DNA from: a virus
Length of the DNA: 21,045 nucleotides
IMG/VR virus record: IMGVR_UViG_3300032291_003976
Span: 1-21,045 of that record
Direction: 5' to 3' (one strand)
This document shows, piece by piece, positions 2,140-21,045 of the stretch. Below the pieces are notes generated by a model, which was not told where the DNA came from, searched no databases, and was given only the letters and a program-made list of their open reading frames with translations. Position numbers and translations under genes: made by a program. Each line of letters starts with the position of its first letter. Position 1 is the first letter of the stretch.

Positions 2140-2943
2140 ATGGATAATTTATCGCTATCAATAATTTTACCTATAAAATCTTCCGTTGTTAAAGACTTTG
2201 AAGATTTCTTTAAAAAGGCTATAGAATCAATAAAAAACAATGATGTAAAACCAAAAGAATTGGTTATTGTACATACGATGGAAGAACAATTAACTTCATT
2301 TTTGGACACGTTTGATTTTGGAGAATTGGAAGTAAAAAAAGTTCCTTACAATAAAACTCCTAACTATGGAGACCAAGTAAGTGAGGGTGTCAAATCATCG
2401 ACAGGAGAATGGATTTCTTTTTTTGAGTTTGATGATGAATATTCGTCTATATGGTTTAGGAATGTAAAAAAATACATAAAGTCATTTCCAAACGTTCAAG
2501 TTTTTTTACCTGTCGTTGTTGACGTTGACGAAAAGGGAGGGTTTGCCGGATTCACAAATGAAGCAACTTTTGCAGCTAATTTCAGTCAAGAAATGGGGCA
2601 TCTTACGAATGAAACTTTACACACATATCAAAACTTTCAAACTGCCGGGGCGGTATATAAAAAACAAGTAATAGAAGATTTTGGTGGGTTTAAACCATCT
2701 ATAAAATTAACATTTGTTTATGAATTTCTTTTGAGACTAACATATAATTCAGTGTCAATTATGACAATACCAAAATTAGGATATAAACATCTTAATTTGA
2801 GAGAAGGTTCTATATTTTGGAACTATAAAAACTCAAGTGAAAAAATGTTAGAAGATGAGGTTAAGTTTTGGATTCAAACAGCAAAGAAAGAGTATTTCTT
2901 TGTGGATGACAGAAACATAAAATACGAACCACAAACTAATTAA
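2140..2943 (+). CDS. GT-A fold glycosyltransferase (GT2-like)
   Basis: A 267-residue protein starting at ATG 2140, one base after the previous stop; an upstream in-frame ATG at 2098 would lie inside the GT-B gene and is unlikely. The opening 'LSIILPIKS' is the first beta strand of GT2 transferases. 'SSTGEWISFFEFDDE' (about 87-100) places a DxD-like acidic motif (E96-F-D98-D99) at the end of the 'G-x-W-I-x-F' strand. 'FQTAGAVYKKQVIEDFGGF' (about 166-184) matches the acceptor-side strand and helix of the family. It probably works with the adjacent GT-B enzyme. The stop overlaps the sigma-factor start (TAATG). Confidence 0.78.
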   Translation: MDNLSLSIILPIKSSVVKDFEDFFKKAIESIKNNDVKPKELVIVHTMEEQLTSFLDTFDFGELEVKKVPYNKTPNYGDQVSEGVKSSTGEWISFFEFDDEYSSIWFRNVKKYIKSFPNVQVFLPVVVDVDEKGGFAGFTNEATFAANFSQEMGHLTNETLHTYQNFQTAGAVYKKQVIEDFGGFKPSIKLTFVYEFLLRLTYNSVSIMTIPKLGYKHLNLREGSIFWNYKNSSEKMLEDEVKFWIQTAKKEYFFVDDRNIKYEPQTN

Positions 2944-3692
2944 TGTCAATAATTCTGTCATCTATCACAGAGGATGTATCATCAAAGAAAAGAGGAAGAA
3001 AAGCTCAAAAAGAAAATTATTTTGATATTAGAGAAGAAGATGCAGTTAGAAGTTTTTTAATTGCAACAACATCTGAAGAAAAAAACAAAATATATAATCA
3101 ATTTTTGAAGGGTCCTTTGGACAAAATGATTTCATCTATCATAAGGAGATACAAATTATATAGGAAAGACATGAATTTTGAAGAAATTCATGCGGATACC
3201 CATTCATTTTTAATGACCAAGGTGGATAAATTTAAACCATCTAAAAACAAAAAGGCGTATTCTTACTTTGGAACAATTTGCAAGAATTATCTAATGGGTC
3301 AAATAATTAAAGACCAAAAGGAAACTAATAGGAAAATATCCTATGAAGACGTTTCTTCAGCTTTGGAGCAAAGACCTGATATGGTTTATACTATAGATGA
3401 CTATACCTTGGGAATGGATGTCGTTATTTCAGTTTACACTAAGGAACTTAAAGATTTCATAGACAAAGAGAATTTAAATGATAACGAAAAAAGATTAGGG
3501 TTTGCGTTAGTGGACCTGTTTGATAACTACGAAACTATTTTTTCAAGTACCGATAATAATAAATTTAATAAGAACATTATTTTACTTTCTTTAAGAGAAA
3601 TGACGAATTTATCAACAAAAGAAATTCGAACTTCTATTAAAAAATTTAAAAAATTGTACGTTTTTACCCAAACTAAATTAAAAAACTATTAA
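2943..3692 (+). CDS. 55: T4 gp55-like late-transcription sigma factor
   Basis: A 249-residue basic protein resembling T4 gp55, the phage sigma that directs host RNA polymerase to late promoters. Residues about 52-130 look like sigma-70 region 2: 'MISSIIRRYKLYRKDMNFEE', then 'HADTHSFLMTKVDKFKP' and 'AYSYFGTICKNYLMGQIIKD', the typical aromatic/basic -10-melting helices. The C-terminal part is less conserved and, unlike T4 gp55, I see no clear acidic-hydrophobic clamp-binding tail. It is longer than T4 gp55 (about 185 aa). It overlaps the GT-A stop by 1 nt. Its presence implies dedicated late promoters in this genome; see the TATTTAT motif entries. Confidence 0.85.
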   Translation: MSIILSSITEDVSSKKRGRKAQKENYFDIREEDAVRSFLIATTSEEKNKIYNQFLKGPLDKMISSIIRRYKLYRKDMNFEEIHADTHSFLMTKVDKFKPSKNKKAYSYFGTICKNYLMGQIIKDQKETNRKISYEDVSSALEQRPDMVYTIDDYTLGMDVVISVYTKELKDFIDKENLNDNEKRLGFALVDLFDNYETIFSSTDNNKFNKNIILLSLREMTNLSTKEIRTSIKKFKKLYVFTQTKLKNY

Positions 3693-11601: not shown

Positions 11602-11758
11602 GAACACCAAGTTAATATTTGACGGACATAAACCCGTTCATGATGATTTTTTTGAACCTAAAAGACAGGAATTAACATTATTACGTTGTTTATATTTTGG
11701 ATACAAAACTAAGTATTGTTCAATAAAAAAAGGGTCTCACGGGACCCTTTTTTCTTAG
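11573..11758 (+). CDS. Hypothetical protein, 61 aa, ends across terminator
   Basis: Small helical protein starting 'MSRIIQLESENTKLIFDG', then 'KPVHDDFFEPKRQELTLLRC'. ATG 11573 was preferred because it limits overlap with the upstream gene to 29 nt; ATGs at 11543 and 11546 would give 71 or 70 residues. The last dozen codons lie within the rho-independent hairpin, and the TAG sits at the end of its T-tract, sharing bases with the stop of the convergent zinc-ribbon gene. No family recognised. Confidence 0.52.
   Translation: MSRIIQLESENTKLIFDGHKPVHDDFFEPKRQELTLLRCLYFGYKTKYCSIKKGSHGTLFS
11724..11753. terminator. Bidirectional intrinsic terminator
   Basis: A-tract, GGGTC(T), a short loop, (G)GACCC, then six T. 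The stem reads as a terminator on both strands and separates the convergent 11573 (+) and 12483 (-) genes. The stem sequence is nearly the same as that of the terminator after the capsid gene. Confidence 0.85.
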
Positions 11759-12483
11759 ATTTTATTACCACAAGAAGGACAGAACTTGTAATTAGTTTTG
11801 ACTTTCGCACCACACTCAGTACAATAATTTCTTATTTCCTGAACCTCAACGGGTTTAGAAGATTTAGGAAGTATTTTATACTCAACACGATGAAGAGTGT
11901 AATAGTTGAAATTTCCATATGTATTAGTTATGTCCTGAGTAGATTTGTCACCTTTTTCAACCCTACCAGTTTCCAAATTAACTGTTGAAGTATTTGAAGT
12001 ATTGGTTAACGTTGTTAACGTTATTCCATTTGTATTAGAGTAGTATACTGAATTGTATGTCGGTGAATTAGTGTTTGACTTGTTCAAAGTACCATACCAA
12101 CTTGTCCCTGTTATGTAGTTAATATGTTGAGGTATATGTTCATCATAGAACTCAATCGTTATCATTCCGTTTAACTCAATTGCAGACCTATTTTGGGGGG
12201 TATTTTCAACTTCATAGGTACTGAACTCAAATTTACTATTAGTGTCAAGGAATCGTTCTAAAAACACTCTCTGGCCTGGTTTCAATACAACTCCTGATGT
12301 GGAAATGTATTCACCATTAATTTTAATTTTAGCAAGTACGGAACTTTGTTTTGGATTATGAATTTCAAATTCAAAATTGTCTTTATCATTAAGGAAGACA
12401 ATGTGGCCGTTATAAACCTTTAAACGTGACTTTTTCTTTGTGATGTGCGCAGTCGGATTGCCCACTTGTGTTGCGTAATTCAT
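11755..12483 (-). CDS. Beta-rich protein with C-terminal zinc ribbon
   Basis: A 242-residue protein. Residues about 15-130 are beta-rich: 'LKVYNGHIVFLNDKDNFEFE', 'VLAKIKINGEYIS' and 'LKPGQRVFLERFLD'. I recall this arrangement from uncharacterised virion-associated or surface proteins in several large viruses and phages. A Thr/Asn/Ser-rich linker (about 125-175) follows, then a compact zinc ribbon with C221-x2-C224 and C235-x2-C238 ('CTECGAKV', 'FCPSCGNKI'). No signal peptide. It is transcribed alone, between a 5' intergenic region and the bidirectional terminator. Function unknown; the metal-binding ribbon is the only firm part. No TATTTAT motif upstream, only an AT-rich leader. Confidence 0.74.
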   Translation of the reverse strand: MNYATQVGNPTAHITKKKSRLKVYNGHIVFLNDKDNFEFEIHNPKQSSVLAKIKINGEYISTSGVVLKPGQRVFLERFLDTNSKFEFSTYEVENTPQNRSAIELNGMITIEFYDEHIPQHINYITGTSWYGTLNKSNTNSPTYNSVYYSNTNGITLTTLTNTSNTSTVNLETGRVEKGDKSTQDITNTYGNFNYYTLHRVEYKILPKSSKPVEVQEIRNYCTECGAKVKTNYKFCPSCGNKI

Positions 12484-14212: not shown

Positions 14213-16018
14213 CTATCTCAACTCTCTCAAATCAAATGTTCTTACACCGTCAACTGTGATTCTACCATAGAATCTGTTGTTCACCATTTTCTTAGCGTAT
14301 CTAGTCATGATACCTTTGATTGGTGTGAAGTTGAACGGATTGTACATTGTTGGAGTAAGTTGTAAAGGTACATACGGTGCGTAAATGTAACCAGTGTCAA
14401 GTAGAGACGTTCCTTTGTGACCAAGAAGAACTTGGTTAGCTGGGAAGTAAGGGTCTCTGTAGACTTGATATCTACCTGCAAGTGTACCGATTCTTTCGAT
14501 ACCCATGTTGTATTGGTCTTGCTCAGGAGCCGCATTTGAAACGTGGAAATACTCCAAGTCATCAAAAATTGCACTGATTTCAGAAGATACAACAATCCAG
14601 TTAGCACCACCTCTAAGAGTAGACTTATGGATTTGAGCTGAAATTTGGTTGATTGCAGTGATAAGAGTTTGGTTCCAGTCTTTCTGAGTGTATGGAACTG
14701 CGTTAGTTCCAAGTCTCTTCCAACCGTTGTAATCCCATCTTAAGTTCCATGCTGCACCTTTTCTAAGGTCTCTCAAGATTTCTCTGTCGATTTCAGCTGC
14801 AACTTGTTCAGACAATAAAGCTGTCAATTCAGCTTCAGCGTCGATGTTGTGGAAAGCAGCAACGTCTTGTGCCATTTCTGGAGACCATTGTGCTCTTAAT
14901 TTTCTTTCAGTTACAGAAACTGTTACTGATTGAAGGTCGAAAGATACCTCACCGATTTTATCTTCAAATTCAAGATTCTTATAGATTCTATAAGTTCCTG
15001 TGAATGCTTGGCTGTTTGCAGTAGTTGAACTGAAAGTAGAACCTGAATAACCATCAAGAGAATTTTGTCCCACAGTACAAGGTACTTGAAGGTCAACTTC
15101 CAAATAGATGTCACCATTTGCATCACAAATATTGTCGAATTGACCACCACCTGTCTTAGAGGCAGGGAATTCTAATGTTTGGTTAGTATTACCATACTGA
15201 ACGATTCCTTTACCATATCTTTGAGTTACAACTCTGAAAAGATAAGGGTTACTAGTATTCGCAGAAGTTGTTGCGTTACCGGCAGCTCCTTTGATAGTCA
15301 AGTCAGACAAGAATGATTCATTGTCGATTGGGTTACCATCAGGGCCGATTAATTTACCAGCACCATCAGATGCGAAACCTGACATGATAAGAAGAACTTT
15401 TCTATACGCATCTGTTGCGTAAGCTGCTGGGTCCAAGTTTAATGTTGTTGAGTTCCAAGCCGCAGTTACGACAGTAGCAGTTATCGCTGAAAACTGACCT
15501 TTTGAGTAGTCAAACAAACCTGGTGGGTCTAATGCTGGTTCGTTACCTTCATAAAATCTATCATAAAGGTCTCTACCATCGTTATAGTTGTATCCCGCAT
15601 TTGGAGATGCTGGACCATTTGGTGCACCGTATGGTGAATAGTGAGTACCAGTGCTGTCATTTTGACCACCACCAGTTTCGTAATTTTGAATGTTAGGTAC
15701 AAAATAGAACAATTTACCGATTGGTAAGTTCATTGCTTGTACTGATACGATGTCGTTAGCCAATAACTTAGAGAAAACTCTTCTGATGATTGGAAATACG
15801 ACAGTTTCGAAAGCACCTGAGTCAGCAGTTGTTGATGCTTCGTTGATTAAGTGAGACGCTTGGTTCTCATAAAGTTGAGCAACGTTCTCTTTCATATGAC
15901 CTTTAAGTCCCTCTAAGAAACCTAAGCCATTCCATTTGTTGATTGTGTCTTCTTTGATAACTTTAAGGTGCTTAAGACCGATGTTACCAACAAGACCTGA
16001 TTCTAATAAAGCTCCCAT
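14213..16018 (-). CDS. 23: Major capsid protein, T4 gp23-like
   Basis: A 601-residue HK97-fold capsid protein clearly related to T4 gp23: 'VTERKLRAQWSPEMAQDVAA', 'NIDAEAELTALLSEQVAAEI', 'WIVVSSEISAIFDDL', and the C-terminal block 'YQVYRDPYFPANQVLLGHKG' followed by 'APYVPLQLTPTMYNP' and 'MTRYAKKMVNNRF'. An N-terminal propeptide of about 60 residues ends 'SHLINE|ASTT', a good (I/L)xE site for the gp21 protease, matching T4 gp23 processing after E65. It is larger than T4 gp23 (521 aa), mainly through an insertion around residues 110-330. It follows the scaffold gene by 37 nt with no terminator between and ends at a strong terminator. No TATTTAT upstream; AATAAATA on the coding strand is the nearest late-like box. 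Confidence 0.97.
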   Translation of the reverse strand: MGALLESGLVGNIGLKHLKVIKEDTINKWNGLGFLEGLKGHMKENVAQLYENQASHLINEASTTADSGAFETVVFPIIRRVFSKLLANDIVSVQAMNLPIGKLFYFVPNIQNYETGGGQNDSTGTHYSPYGAPNGPASPNAGYNYNDGRDLYDRFYEGNEPALDPPGLFDYSKGQFSAITATVVTAAWNSTTLNLDPAAYATDAYRKVLLIMSGFASDGAGKLIGPDGNPIDNESFLSDLTIKGAAGNATTSANTSNPYLFRVVTQRYGKGIVQYGNTNQTLEFPASKTGGGQFDNICDANGDIYLEVDLQVPCTVGQNSLDGYSGSTFSSTTANSQAFTGTYRIYKNLEFEDKIGEVSFDLQSVTVSVTERKLRAQWSPEMAQDVAAFHNIDAEAELTALLSEQVAAEIDREILRDLRKGAAWNLRWDYNGWKRLGTNAVPYTQKDWNQTLITAINQISAQIHKSTLRGGANWIVVSSEISAIFDDLEYFHVSNAAPEQDQYNMGIERIGTLAGRYQVYRDPYFPANQVLLGHKGTSLLDTGYIYAPYVPLQLTPTMYNPFNFTPIKGIMTRYAKKMVNNRFYGRITVDGVRTFDLRELR

Positions 16019-17888: not shown

Positions 17889-18611
17889 TTATTTTGATAA
17901 ATAATCGGTTAATTTTTTCATTAAATCAATAGATTGACTCATTTTTGGTTCTGAACTAAGTCTTATTTTTTTTTCTTCTTCTAAATTTTCATCATACTTA
18001 TCCCTTTCATTCATATCGTCAAAAAGATATGCTCCGGGTGTTGATGGTGAAGAAACTAAGTCAAAACAAATTAATTCAAAATCATCTTGAACTTCGTTCC
18101 TATCCCCTATTTTCTTTAAAGAACCTACCCCTCTTGATGAAATTCCTAAAGTCACTCCCTGTCTTAATAGATTTGCTGCAATATCACCTTTTGTTGTAAC
18201 AATACCACTTTCATGAAAACCTGGTGAAGTCAACAATTTTATTTTTCCCATCAAAATATTTTTATCCCACCATATATCAGTTATAGCGTGAGACACTCTA
18301 TCTAAATCAATTAAAGAAGATTCTGGATGATTTAACTCCGAAGTTGCTAAACCTTTTTCAATTAAAACTTTATATTTTTCCGATTCTCTTTTTAAAATTT
18401 TTTCAGAATAAGTTCTACCATTCCTATTTGGAGTATCGTATTTTTGTAATACAGCATAGAATTCGAAAGGGTTTTTATAATCAAATTGTTTACCTTCTTT
18501 TATAAATTTTAAATTTTCACCTGCAACAGGAGAAACAAATCCCGCATCCATTTCTATCAAAATTCCGTGACCGACTTCATGAGCCTCAAGGATTCTTAAT
18601 TTTTTTTCCAT
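17889..18611 (-). CDS. 21: Prohead core protease, T4 gp21-like
   Basis: Start chosen at ATG 18611 (a TTG immediately upstream is less likely). A 240-residue serine protease of the T4 gp21/herpes assemblin type. Motifs: 'YDTPNRNGRTY' (58-68), 'GLATSELNHPE' (87-97) with catalytic H95, 'RVSHAITDIWW' (105-115), 'GVTLGISSRGVGS' (152-164) with the serine at S158 or S159, and 'FDLVSSPSTPGA' (183-194). It cleaves scaffold, capsid and other head proteins after (I/L)xE during maturation. It sits between the core-protein candidates and scaffold, as in T4, and carries its own TATTTAT box. Confidence 0.95.
   Translation of the reverse strand: MEKKLRILEAHEVGHGILIEMDAGFVSPVAGENLKFIKEGKQFDYKNPFEFYAVLQKYDTPNRNGRTYSEKILKRESEKYKVLIEKGLATSELNHPESSLIDLDRVSHAITDIWWDKNILMGKIKLLTSPGFHESGIVTTKGDIAANLLRQGVTLGISSRGVGSLKKIGDRNEVQDDFELICFDLVSSPSTPGAYLFDDMNERDKYDENLEEEKKIRLSSEPKMSQSIDLMKKLTDYLSK
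17897..17903 (-). promoter_or_regulatory. TATTTAT motif upstream of 17883 gene
   Basis: Minus-strand TATTTATC inside the last codons of the protease gene, 13 nt before ATG 17883. Its location within coding sequence makes it weaker evidence than the intergenic copies. Confidence 0.28.
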
Positions 18612-18625
18612 CAACTATTTTTAAA

Positions 18626-18632
18626 ATAAATA
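18626..18632 (-). promoter_or_regulatory. TATTTAT motif upstream of protease gene
   Basis: Minus-strand TATTTATT in the 48-nt spacer, 14 nt before ATG 18611. Confidence 0.4.
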
Positions 18633-19088: not shown

Positions 19089-19181
19089 TCAGTTTTCATA
19101 TTACTTAGTTTATTTTTTATAAACATAAGATATTATAACTTGTTAGTCAAAGTTTTGGATAAATCGCAATATTTGTAATAT
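19089..19181. other. Divergent spacer with AT-rich inverted repeat
   Basis: 93 nt between the 19088 (-) and bS21 (+) start codons. GTTTAT-TTTTT-ATAAAC at 19108-19124 is a six-pair inverted repeat, too weak for a terminator. AATATTTG (19168-19175) matches seven of eight positions of the -7 element, 7 nt before the bS21 ATG, but no -33 box is correctly spaced. Confidence 0.4.
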
Positions 19182-19367
19182 ATGTTAATTATTGAAATAA
19201 AAGGAAACGATAGTATTGAAAGAGCGTTAAAATTGCTTAAGTCAAAAGTTATTAAGACTAAACAACAACAAAAGTTGTTTGATAAAAAAGAATACGTAAA
19301 GAAATCTGTAGTAAAAAGAAAACAGACTTTAAAAGCAATTTACACCCAAAAGATTAAAAATTCTTAA
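19182..19367 (+). CDS. rpsU: Phage-encoded ribosomal protein bS21
   Basis: A 61-residue homologue of small-subunit protein bS21 in its Bacteroidota form. The opening 'MLIIEIKGNDSIERALKLLK' corresponds to the bS21 'I.I.....I..ALKR.KRK' start, followed by 'QQQKLFDKKEYVKKSVVKRK' (the 'LR.R..F.KPS..RR' block) and 'AIYTQKIKN' at the end. Y54 is retained; as I recall, Tyr54 of Flavobacterium bS21 helps hold the 16S anti-Shine-Dalgarno tail away from mRNA. Phage bS21 is known from several large phages. It is the only + strand gene inside the minus-strand head module, and its stop shares bases with the stop of the 20068 gene. It probably exchanges into host ribosomes; the effect is unknown. Confidence 0.88.
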   Translation: MLIIEIKGNDSIERALKLLKSKVIKTKQQQKLFDKKEYVKKSVVKRKQTLKAIYTQKIKNS

Positions 19368-20091: not shown

Positions 20092-20098
20092 ATAAATA
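20092..20098 (-). promoter_or_regulatory. TATTTAT motif upstream of core-protein gene
   Basis: Minus-strand TATTTATA immediately after the portal stop codon, 23 nt before ATG 20068. The spacing suits a short-leader promoter. Confidence 0.42.
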
Positions 20099-21045
20099 TT
20101 ACAGATTTAATAACTTATCAAGTTGTTTGTCAATTTCTCCCAAAGAATCTCTACCTTGACTTAAATTTATAAAACTTGCTCCCTCTAATACGTTATTTTC
20201 AACCAAAATATTTAATCTTTCGAGTCTAGATTCTGGTGTTACTGCTGCCTCACCTTCTCCGCCAGGAGGTGGTGGAGGTGGTGGAGGTGCTCCGCCTCCT
20301 TCAGAACCCATATCTGGAGAAGATAATGGTCCCAAATCACCACCTAAATCAGGTTGTGCTTCACTAGAAGTTGTTGCGGTTCCTCCACTAGAATTTCCAT
20401 AAAGTTTATCAATATTATCGAATAATCCTGTTTTACTAATTATTGTTGGAGTTTGTTTCAATTCTTCACCGATAGCTCTTTCCAATCTTTGTTGTAATAA
20501 ATCAGTCCTAATTTCATCATCAGAAAAATTGAATATGTGTTTCTTTGCCCATGTTGCCGAAGTTGCGGAAATACCATTACCTGGGTCCATAACCAAATCT
20601 TTATAAAGCAAAACTTTTTCTTTCCAAACATCAATTTTAAGTAAATCGGCTTGAGTTGATGGGTTGGTTAGACCAATTGTAAAGTTATCTATCTCATCCT
20701 CAAATCCTAATAAAAATAGATGTATGATTGCAATTTTATTAAGTTCTTGAATCATACACTTTTGAATCCTGTTGATAGTTCTTGCAAAACGAATATCTTG
20801 TAATGAAAGATTTTTACCATCACCAACAACTTCTTCAAAACCCAAAAATGCTTTTGGCACTCTAAGGGCGGTTAATAATTTTTTCTGTATATATTCGATA
20901 TCGGCAATCTCAGATAAGTTTTGTGCCCCTGGTAAAGTATCGATTGGACTTGCCGCCGCTTGGTCTCTAACAGGAATAAAGTAATCTTGATCCACAGCCA
21001 TTTGGTTAAATCTTAAATCGACATTACCTGAATTCTTATCAACTA
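20099..21045 (-). CDS. 20: Portal protein, T4 gp20-like, C-terminal part
   Basis: The frame is open to the window edge, so this is the C-terminal 315 or so residues; the Met at 21001 is internal. Match to T4-type portals: 'VDQDYFIPVRDQ' (gp20 'ML.DYWLPRR'), 'IEYIQKKLLTALRVPKAFLG', 'DIRFARTINRIQKCMIQELN', and 'LTNPSTQADLLKIDVWKEKV'. It forms the dodecameric ring at the capsid vertex through which DNA is packaged. The C-terminus carries an unusual low-complexity tail: Ser/Thr/Gly-rich, then eight consecutive prolines (20265-20288) and a Gly/Glu stretch before a final helix 'ERLNILVENNVLEG'. It is the first head gene in the minus-strand order 20-core-21-22-23. Confidence 0.95.
   Translation of the reverse strand, partial: VDKNSGNVDLRFNQMAVDQDYFIPVRDQAAASPIDTLPGAQNLSEIADIEYIQKKLLTALRVPKAFLGFEEVVGDGKNLSLQDIRFARTINRIQKCMIQELNKIAIIHLFLLGFEDEIDNFTIGLTNPSTQADLLKIDVWKEKVLLYKDLVMDPGNGISATSATWAKKHIFNFSDDEIRTDLLQQRLERAIGEELKQTPTIISKTGLFDNIDKLYGNSSGGTATTSSEAQPDLGGDLGPLSSPDMGSEGGGAPPPPPPPPGGEGEAAVTPESRLERLNILVENNVLEGASFINLSQGRDSLGEIDKQLDKLLNL

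Follow-up and report, generated by a model that had tools for sequence, protein, structure and literature searches.

A genuine, full-length ribosomal protein bS21 gene (rpsU) of the Bacteroidia type is confirmed by sequence analysis within the viral DNA examined here (the window, a virus record of 21,045 nucleotides, or 21 kb, that is itself a fragment). Its leader lacks a Shine-Dalgarno (SD) sequence and carries a putative late promoter whose spacing would place the start of transcription on the AUG itself. We propose that the phage protein displaces host bS21 from the ribosomes of Flavobacteriia late in infection and that, being made from an SD-free, AUG-start late promoter, it does so in a one-way replacement; our confidence in this reading is about evenly divided.

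Identity of the phage bS21 and its residues 19-28

bS21 is the ribosomal protein that phages carry most often. The product of the window gene matched the Pfam Ribosomal_S21 profile (PF01165) over 53 of 55 positions, with an E-value of 9.9e-9 and a score of 35.2 bits (cut-off 27), which keeps it inside the bS21 family; the score for the NCBIfam equivalog TIGR00030 fell under its cut-off (25.0 vs 28.95 bits), as fits a divergent member. Its best solved relatives are bS21 proteins of Bacteroidota, headed by that of Flavobacterium johnsoniae (7jil, E=7e-9), with which it aligns without gaps over residues 1-61, Y54 standing opposite Y54, the aromatic position that stacks on A1534. The initial annotation had described a full-length Bacteroidota-type bS21 on the + strand that keeps Y54, and both statements were borne out. 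Related proteins were found on 79 viral contigs (58-100% identity) and are under purifying selection (median dN/dS about 0.09, 28 pairs), so that the open reading frame is not a chance one.

Phage-encoded bS21 had been said to be known already, and it is. Chen et al. (2022) described 47 phage genomes, from freshwater Bacteroidota jumbo phages grouped in clades a-e, in which bS21 is encoded on the opposite strand, no more than a few genes away from the terminase, portal, protease and capsid genes, retains Tyr54 or another aromatic residue and diverges at residues 21, 23, 25 (their numbering) and 28; they found late, high bS21 expression and proposed that the protein enters ribosomes and selects phage transcripts (PMC9723584). 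The window has the same antisense placement near the portal, prohead protease and major capsid genes, the same Tyr54, divergence at residues 21, 23 and 28 and, as in those phages, its closest cellular bS21 in Flavobacteriia. Their genomes measure about 290-330 kb and have the terminase nearby; the window is a 21-kb fragment, and its 322-kb relative G001 has a terminase gene within the head region. We found no real difference between the two, and the window contig is a further member of the published group; the ribosome-takeover idea of the initial annotation is likewise already in print (PMC9723584). The bS21 of Pelagibacter phage HTVC008M, which enters Escherichia coli ribosomes (Mizuno et al., 2019; PMC6375957), is also phage-borne and in a T4-like myovirus, but its host and the protein itself are proteobacterial, apparently reflecting a separate acquisition. 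The huge phages LR756501 (735 kb), LR745206, LR756502 and LR756504 carry, like the window, a Bacteroidota-type bS21 with Y54.

The phage proteins depart from those of the host in a block that hardly varies among them. Residues 19-28 read LKSKVIKT[KR]Q in all 38 distinct phage proteins, as against YKRKFDKTGT in F. johnsoniae. At residues 19, 21, 23, 24, 27 and 28, the phage proteins (38/38) differ from the 47 distinct Flavobacterium proteins (47/47): phage L19, S21, V23, I24 and Q28 stand opposite Y, R, F, D and T (V once), and residue 27 is K or R in the phages and G in Flavobacterium. Arginines are also about half as numerous, averaging 3.6 per phage protein vs 7.8 per host protein. The phage proteins share with F. 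johnsoniae bS21 the ungapped collinear alignment and much of the C-terminal half, where K51, A52 and Y54 are near invariant (Tyr54 in 37 of the 38, His in one). For residue contacts we relied on Chen et al. (2022) and McNutt et al. (2023). According to the former, the N-terminal helix of bS21 covers the anti-SD along the expected path of the mRNA (PMC9723584); with the 19-28 block on that side, the phage would appear to alter the mRNA-side end of the protein while keeping the end that hides the tail.

Phylogenetic comparison with host bS21 (118 rows) placed the 38 distinct phage proteins in a single clade (SH-aLRT 91), beside that of the 735-kb phage LR756501 and apart from Flavobacterium, in a tree that is only moderately firm because it rests on 64 columns. 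Recent capture from a present-day host is therefore not supported, an argument that the 64 columns make a weak one.

These data bear on the simplest alternative, namely that phage bS21 does the job of host bS21 and merely keeps up the supply of a protein that binds loosely and can be exchanged, once host transcription has ceased, leaving the choice of mRNA unchanged. Such a role would suit the purifying selection and the conservation of Tyr54 along with much of the C-terminal half. Truncation of bS21 impairs initiation by F. johnsoniae ribosomes on mRNA without an SD (PMC9976891), so any supply of bS21 would help a phage whose genes lack SDs. Most of the facts are accounted for in this way, except the fixed 19-28 block, whose near invariance and complete separation from the Flavobacterium residues exceed what plain maintenance would call for; we regard simple supply as possible but rather doubtful.

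The head module and the neighbors of bS21

The genes surrounding bS21 form a T4-like head module encoded on the minus strand, in which the portal, the prohead protease and the major head protein were identified (Table 1); bS21 is antisense to this module in 79/79 loci. It had been placed in the head module, between core and protease genes. The first part of that description stands; the second does not, as the immediate neighbors of bS21 are uncharacterized genes of 142 and 234 aa, with the protease and portal genes each one gene further out. The stop codons of bS21 and the 234-aa gene overlap by 4 nt, an overlap repeated in 61 of 70 loci.

Table 1. Positions of genes and predicted promoter elements in the window.
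Feature	Position	Strand	Remarks
Candidate late sigma factor (T4 gp55-like)	2943..3692	+	phrog_234 "late sigma", best E=5.9e-4
Major head protein (T4 gp23-like)	14213..16018	-	phrog_138, E=3e-66
Prohead (head maturation) protease, T4-like	17889..18614	-	phrog_207, E=7.8e-43
Putative TATTTAT promoter element of protease	18626..18632	-	first T 21 nt before ATG
Divergent neighbor, 142 aa	18660..19088	-	adjoins bS21 in 79/79 loci
Putative -10 element TATGTT of divergent 142-aa gene	19122..19127	-	34 distinct intergenic regions compared
Putative -35 element TTGACT of divergent 142-aa gene	19145..19150	-	reads AGTCAA on + strand
Putative late-type -10 element TATTTGT of bS21	19170..19176	+	first T 12 nt before ATG
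Phage rpsU (bS21, 61 aa, Bacteroidia type)	19182..19367	+	ATG start; Tyr54; residues 19-28 LKSKVIKTKQ
Convergent neighbor, 234 aa	19364..20068	-	found in 75/79 loci
Putative TATTTAT promoter element of 234-aa gene	20092..20098	-	leader comparison and window motif scan
Portal protein, C-terminal part, open at window edge	20099..21001	-	phrog_213, E=1.7e-27

The constant position within the head module (79/79), together with the overlap between bS21 and the 3′ end of an oppositely oriented head-region gene, might instead be indicative of a role outside the ribosome, with bS21 acting as a small basic RNA-binding protein in the virion (for example, entering the cell together with the genome) or regulating head-gene mRNAs or its own; packaging in the virion was also raised by Chen et al. 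(PMC9723584). We consider this improbable, given that the protein is a full-length, collinear bS21 that keeps the ribosome-contacting Tyr54, and that a phage bS21 of another family does enter ribosomes (PMC6375957).

The 142-aa protein gave a confident AlphaFold model (pLDDT 90.8, pTM 0.86) with no fold match in the PDB, its sole match being one uncharacterized phage protein. Its slot just before the protease is what we take to be the position of a prohead-core gene in the T4 gene order. The gene is possibly the bS21_CN (fam498) of Chen et al. (2022). We also considered it as a dedicated bS21-exchange factor and found no support for this idea, because there was no informative fold match, the gene occurs without bS21 and its position suits a prohead-core gene. 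Among 20 further long records picked via another gene, bS21 was present in 12 and the 142-aa gene in 13. The 152-kb fragment G317 (locus L343) retains the 142-aa gene with its promoter intact and has no bS21 in the record; a terminator-like hairpin occupies the place of bS21 there. In the cultured T4-like Flavobacterium phage Immutovirus immuto, no bS21 lies between portal and protease, and tblastn returned no match. Absence from G317 and from Immutovirus immuto implies that bS21 is not essential to this lifestyle.

Elsewhere in the 21-kb window, no tRNAs were found. The protein encoded at 11755-12483, between the tail and head genes, has a C-terminal zinc ribbon (PF13240), and two adjoining genes at 1083-2943, just before the sigma-like gene of Table 1, are glycosyltransferase-like (Glycos_transf_1, weak; Glycos_transf_2, E=3e-6).

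TATTTAT-type elements and the predicted start of bS21 transcription

An expectation-maximization (EM) search begun from several seed words converged best on (A)TATTTAT. We rejected the possibility that this word is over-represented in the window, where 16 copies were found vs 15.0 expected; only its placement is non-random, as seen in longer relatives. In three of these, G001 (322 kb), G003 (149 kb) and G006 (107 kb), TATTTAT occurs upstream of genes in a strand-specific manner and at two preferred distances, with its first T either near -24 to -21 or near -13 to -11 from the ATG and few sites between. It precedes only roughly 25-50% of eligible genes, and a search of the same three genomes for a conserved -35 element upstream of it found none. 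In the far class, the motif is followed by an A-tract where the start site would be expected; 5′ slippage at such tracts (e.g., in G001), giving poly(A) leaders, is conceivable.

The initial annotation had treated TATTTAT as a leader, and one could imagine that it and its relatives enhance translation on ribosomes tuned to them by bS21. Being AT-rich, just before the ATG and enriched in the three large relatives, the motif might invite such a reading, which we nonetheless think very unlikely in view of its promoter-like strand specificity, its two fixed distances, the A-tract at the expected start site of the far class and its near absence before operon-internal genes (those no more than 5 nt after another gene; 0/89, 0/48 and 2/43 in G001, G003 and G006, respectively). 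TATTTAT is better explained as a -10-only promoter element serving late genes, a prediction that draws on sequence comparison. Late promoters of T4, which are recognized by the gp55 sigma factor, likewise consist of a -10 element with no -35 and serve late genes, the T4 sequence being TATAAATA as against TATTTAT here. As T4 has gp55, the window has a candidate gp55-like gene (2943-3692), although its identification as a late sigma is weak: phrog_234 was matched by 30/30 relatives at E<=1, the comparison of its product with T4 gp55 (7d7c) gave E=0.11, and a fold search with the product returned sigma factors, none at E<=0.001. The gene is highly conserved, with at least 567 stretches of viral contigs carrying it.

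Within the head module, the element precedes the protease gene at -22 to -19 in 35/35 distinct leaders and the core gene in 20/20, and was found before the major capsid protein (MCP) gene in 0/15; the portal gene also lacks it. In G001 it is present before the endolysin and terminase genes. This promoter map is in line with the co-transcription that Chen et al. described, of MCP with the core gene upstream of it and of the protease with its downstream gene (PMC9723584).

For bS21, the TATTTGT site scored at the 99.9th percentile of the coding-sequence background of the window under the EM-derived matrix, and the best matrix site fell at -14 to -12 in 24 of 27 distinct bS21 leaders. The -7 box of F. 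psychrophilum promoters occupies positions -12 to -5 relative to the start site, and by the distance rule from that start-site map (PMC9723704) transcription of bS21 is predicted to start at the A of its ATG (19182, +/- 1-2). The same rule predicts that near-class genes generally start on their own AUG and that far-class leaders are about 10 nt long, so that about a third of motif-bearing genes would yield leaderless mRNAs. In 9 ortholog pairs whose starts align, the near spacing was conserved. It accounted for 47 of 140 motif-bearing G001 genes vs 7 of 88 TAnnTTTG boxes in a Flavobacterium genome (p=5e-6), a comparison between differing motifs and hence indicative. For F. psychrophilum, the published map gives a leaderless share of 5.5% (PMC9723704).

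The intergenic region shared by bS21 and the 142-aa gene holds an invariant GTCAAAA that could be taken for a -35 element of bS21. We rejected that assignment. In the 34 distinct intergenic regions compared, TTGAC, on the opposite strand, is always present and lies 17 bp from a TAT[GTC]TT-like hexamer in 33, while its distance to the bS21 -10 element varies from 14 to 21 bp, and GTCAAAA persists in L343, which lacks bS21. The fixed 17-bp spacing and this persistence argue that it contains the -35 element of the 142-aa gene. By these sequence features, bS21 and the 142-aa gene have putative promoters of two different types set back to back. Chen et al. found similar RNA levels for bS21 and bS21_CN (PMC9723584), which, set against the differing promoters of bS21 and its divergent neighbor here, is a point against our model.

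Shine-Dalgarno sequences, host rpsU and a proposed replacement of host bS21

In F. johnsoniae, host bS21 hides the anti-SD and rpsU has an extended SD, so that its product is synthesized chiefly when bS21 runs short; this autoregulation and the effect of Y54A were described by McNutt et al. (2023) (PMC9976891). We compared phage and host genes in this respect, using 80 Flavobacterium rpsU loci. In every one of the 80, the region from -25 to -4 contains an SD match 6-11 nt long, mostly AGGAGGTG, whereas among 28 distinct phage bS21 leaders the longest match was 5 nt, 19 had under 4 nt and none (0/28) reached 6 nt. The bS21 leader of the window has no SD, and the extended SD of a host-type autoregulated rpsU is absent from it. 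The phage gene would thus pair SD-free translation with a predicted leaderless late promoter, where F. johnsoniae has a host promoter and an SD leader. Since almost all genes of such phages lack SDs (they are nearly unused, with 1/318 in G001), the loss at bS21 may be the default rather than a special adaptation. Whatever the reason for the loss, SD-based control would be unable to act on a leader without an SD. Unlike the window clade, LR756501 (locus L245) has an AGGAGG SD upstream of bS21, and its bS21 may therefore still be under host-type control.

It had been argued that replacing host bS21 could turn initiation toward phage mRNAs without SDs. This fails, because Flavobacterium mRNAs are also without SDs and no selectivity would result; moreover, Tyr54 predicts that the anti-SD is hidden, as with host bS21. 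The late co-expression and ribosome replacement that it assumed agree with published data and proposals (PMC9723584, PMC6375957, PMC9976891), replacement being, for these phages, a proposal.

The late displacement of host bS21 that we propose would proceed as follows. bS21 would be transcribed from its TATTTGT promoter, which has no -35 element, at a late stage, the timing measured in its relatives, and its mRNA would be translated leaderless or nearly so. The protein would then exchange into ribosomes, bS21 being loosely bound. Because Tyr54 is kept, the anti-SD should stay hidden in ribosomes loaded with phage bS21, and if the F. johnsoniae mechanism applies, translation of host rpsU would stop, since it depends on an accessible anti-SD. 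Phage bS21 would accumulate freely while host bS21 was not replenished, and replacement would become one-way. The 19-28 block may in addition alter initiation, perhaps favoring leaderless or very short-leader phage mRNAs. Such an altered mRNA preference, suggested by the residues of the block, is possible but less certain. E. coli ribosomes without bS1 and bS21 prefer leaderless mRNA (reviewed in PMC12186496), which makes a link between bS21 and leaderless initiation plausible, with the difference that bS21 is missing there and swapped here.

Taken to its full extent, the one-way replacement proposed here would have the phage exploit the feedback of host bS21: rpsU is shut off, the phage copy escapes, and the 19-28 block shifts ribosomes toward late mRNAs that are unusually often leaderless. 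We offer this fuller version only tentatively. McNutt et al. (2023) speculated that the rpsU feedback loop might counter phages (PMC9976891); a loop turned against the host would be the opposite of that suggestion. In a partial literature search, we found no published report of the contrast between host rpsU (SD of 6-11 nt) and phage bS21 (none), of the promoter spacing of bS21 or of the fixed 19-28 block with Tyr54 kept, and a search of PMC9723584 for the relevant terms found in it neither promoter spacing nor SD loss nor the autoregulation argument.

Host autoregulation, the absence of an SD from the phage gene and its predicted leaderless late promoter together narrow the general idea of ribosome hijacking to specific questions, namely whether host rpsU is repressed by phage bS21 and whether leaderless mRNAs are favored.
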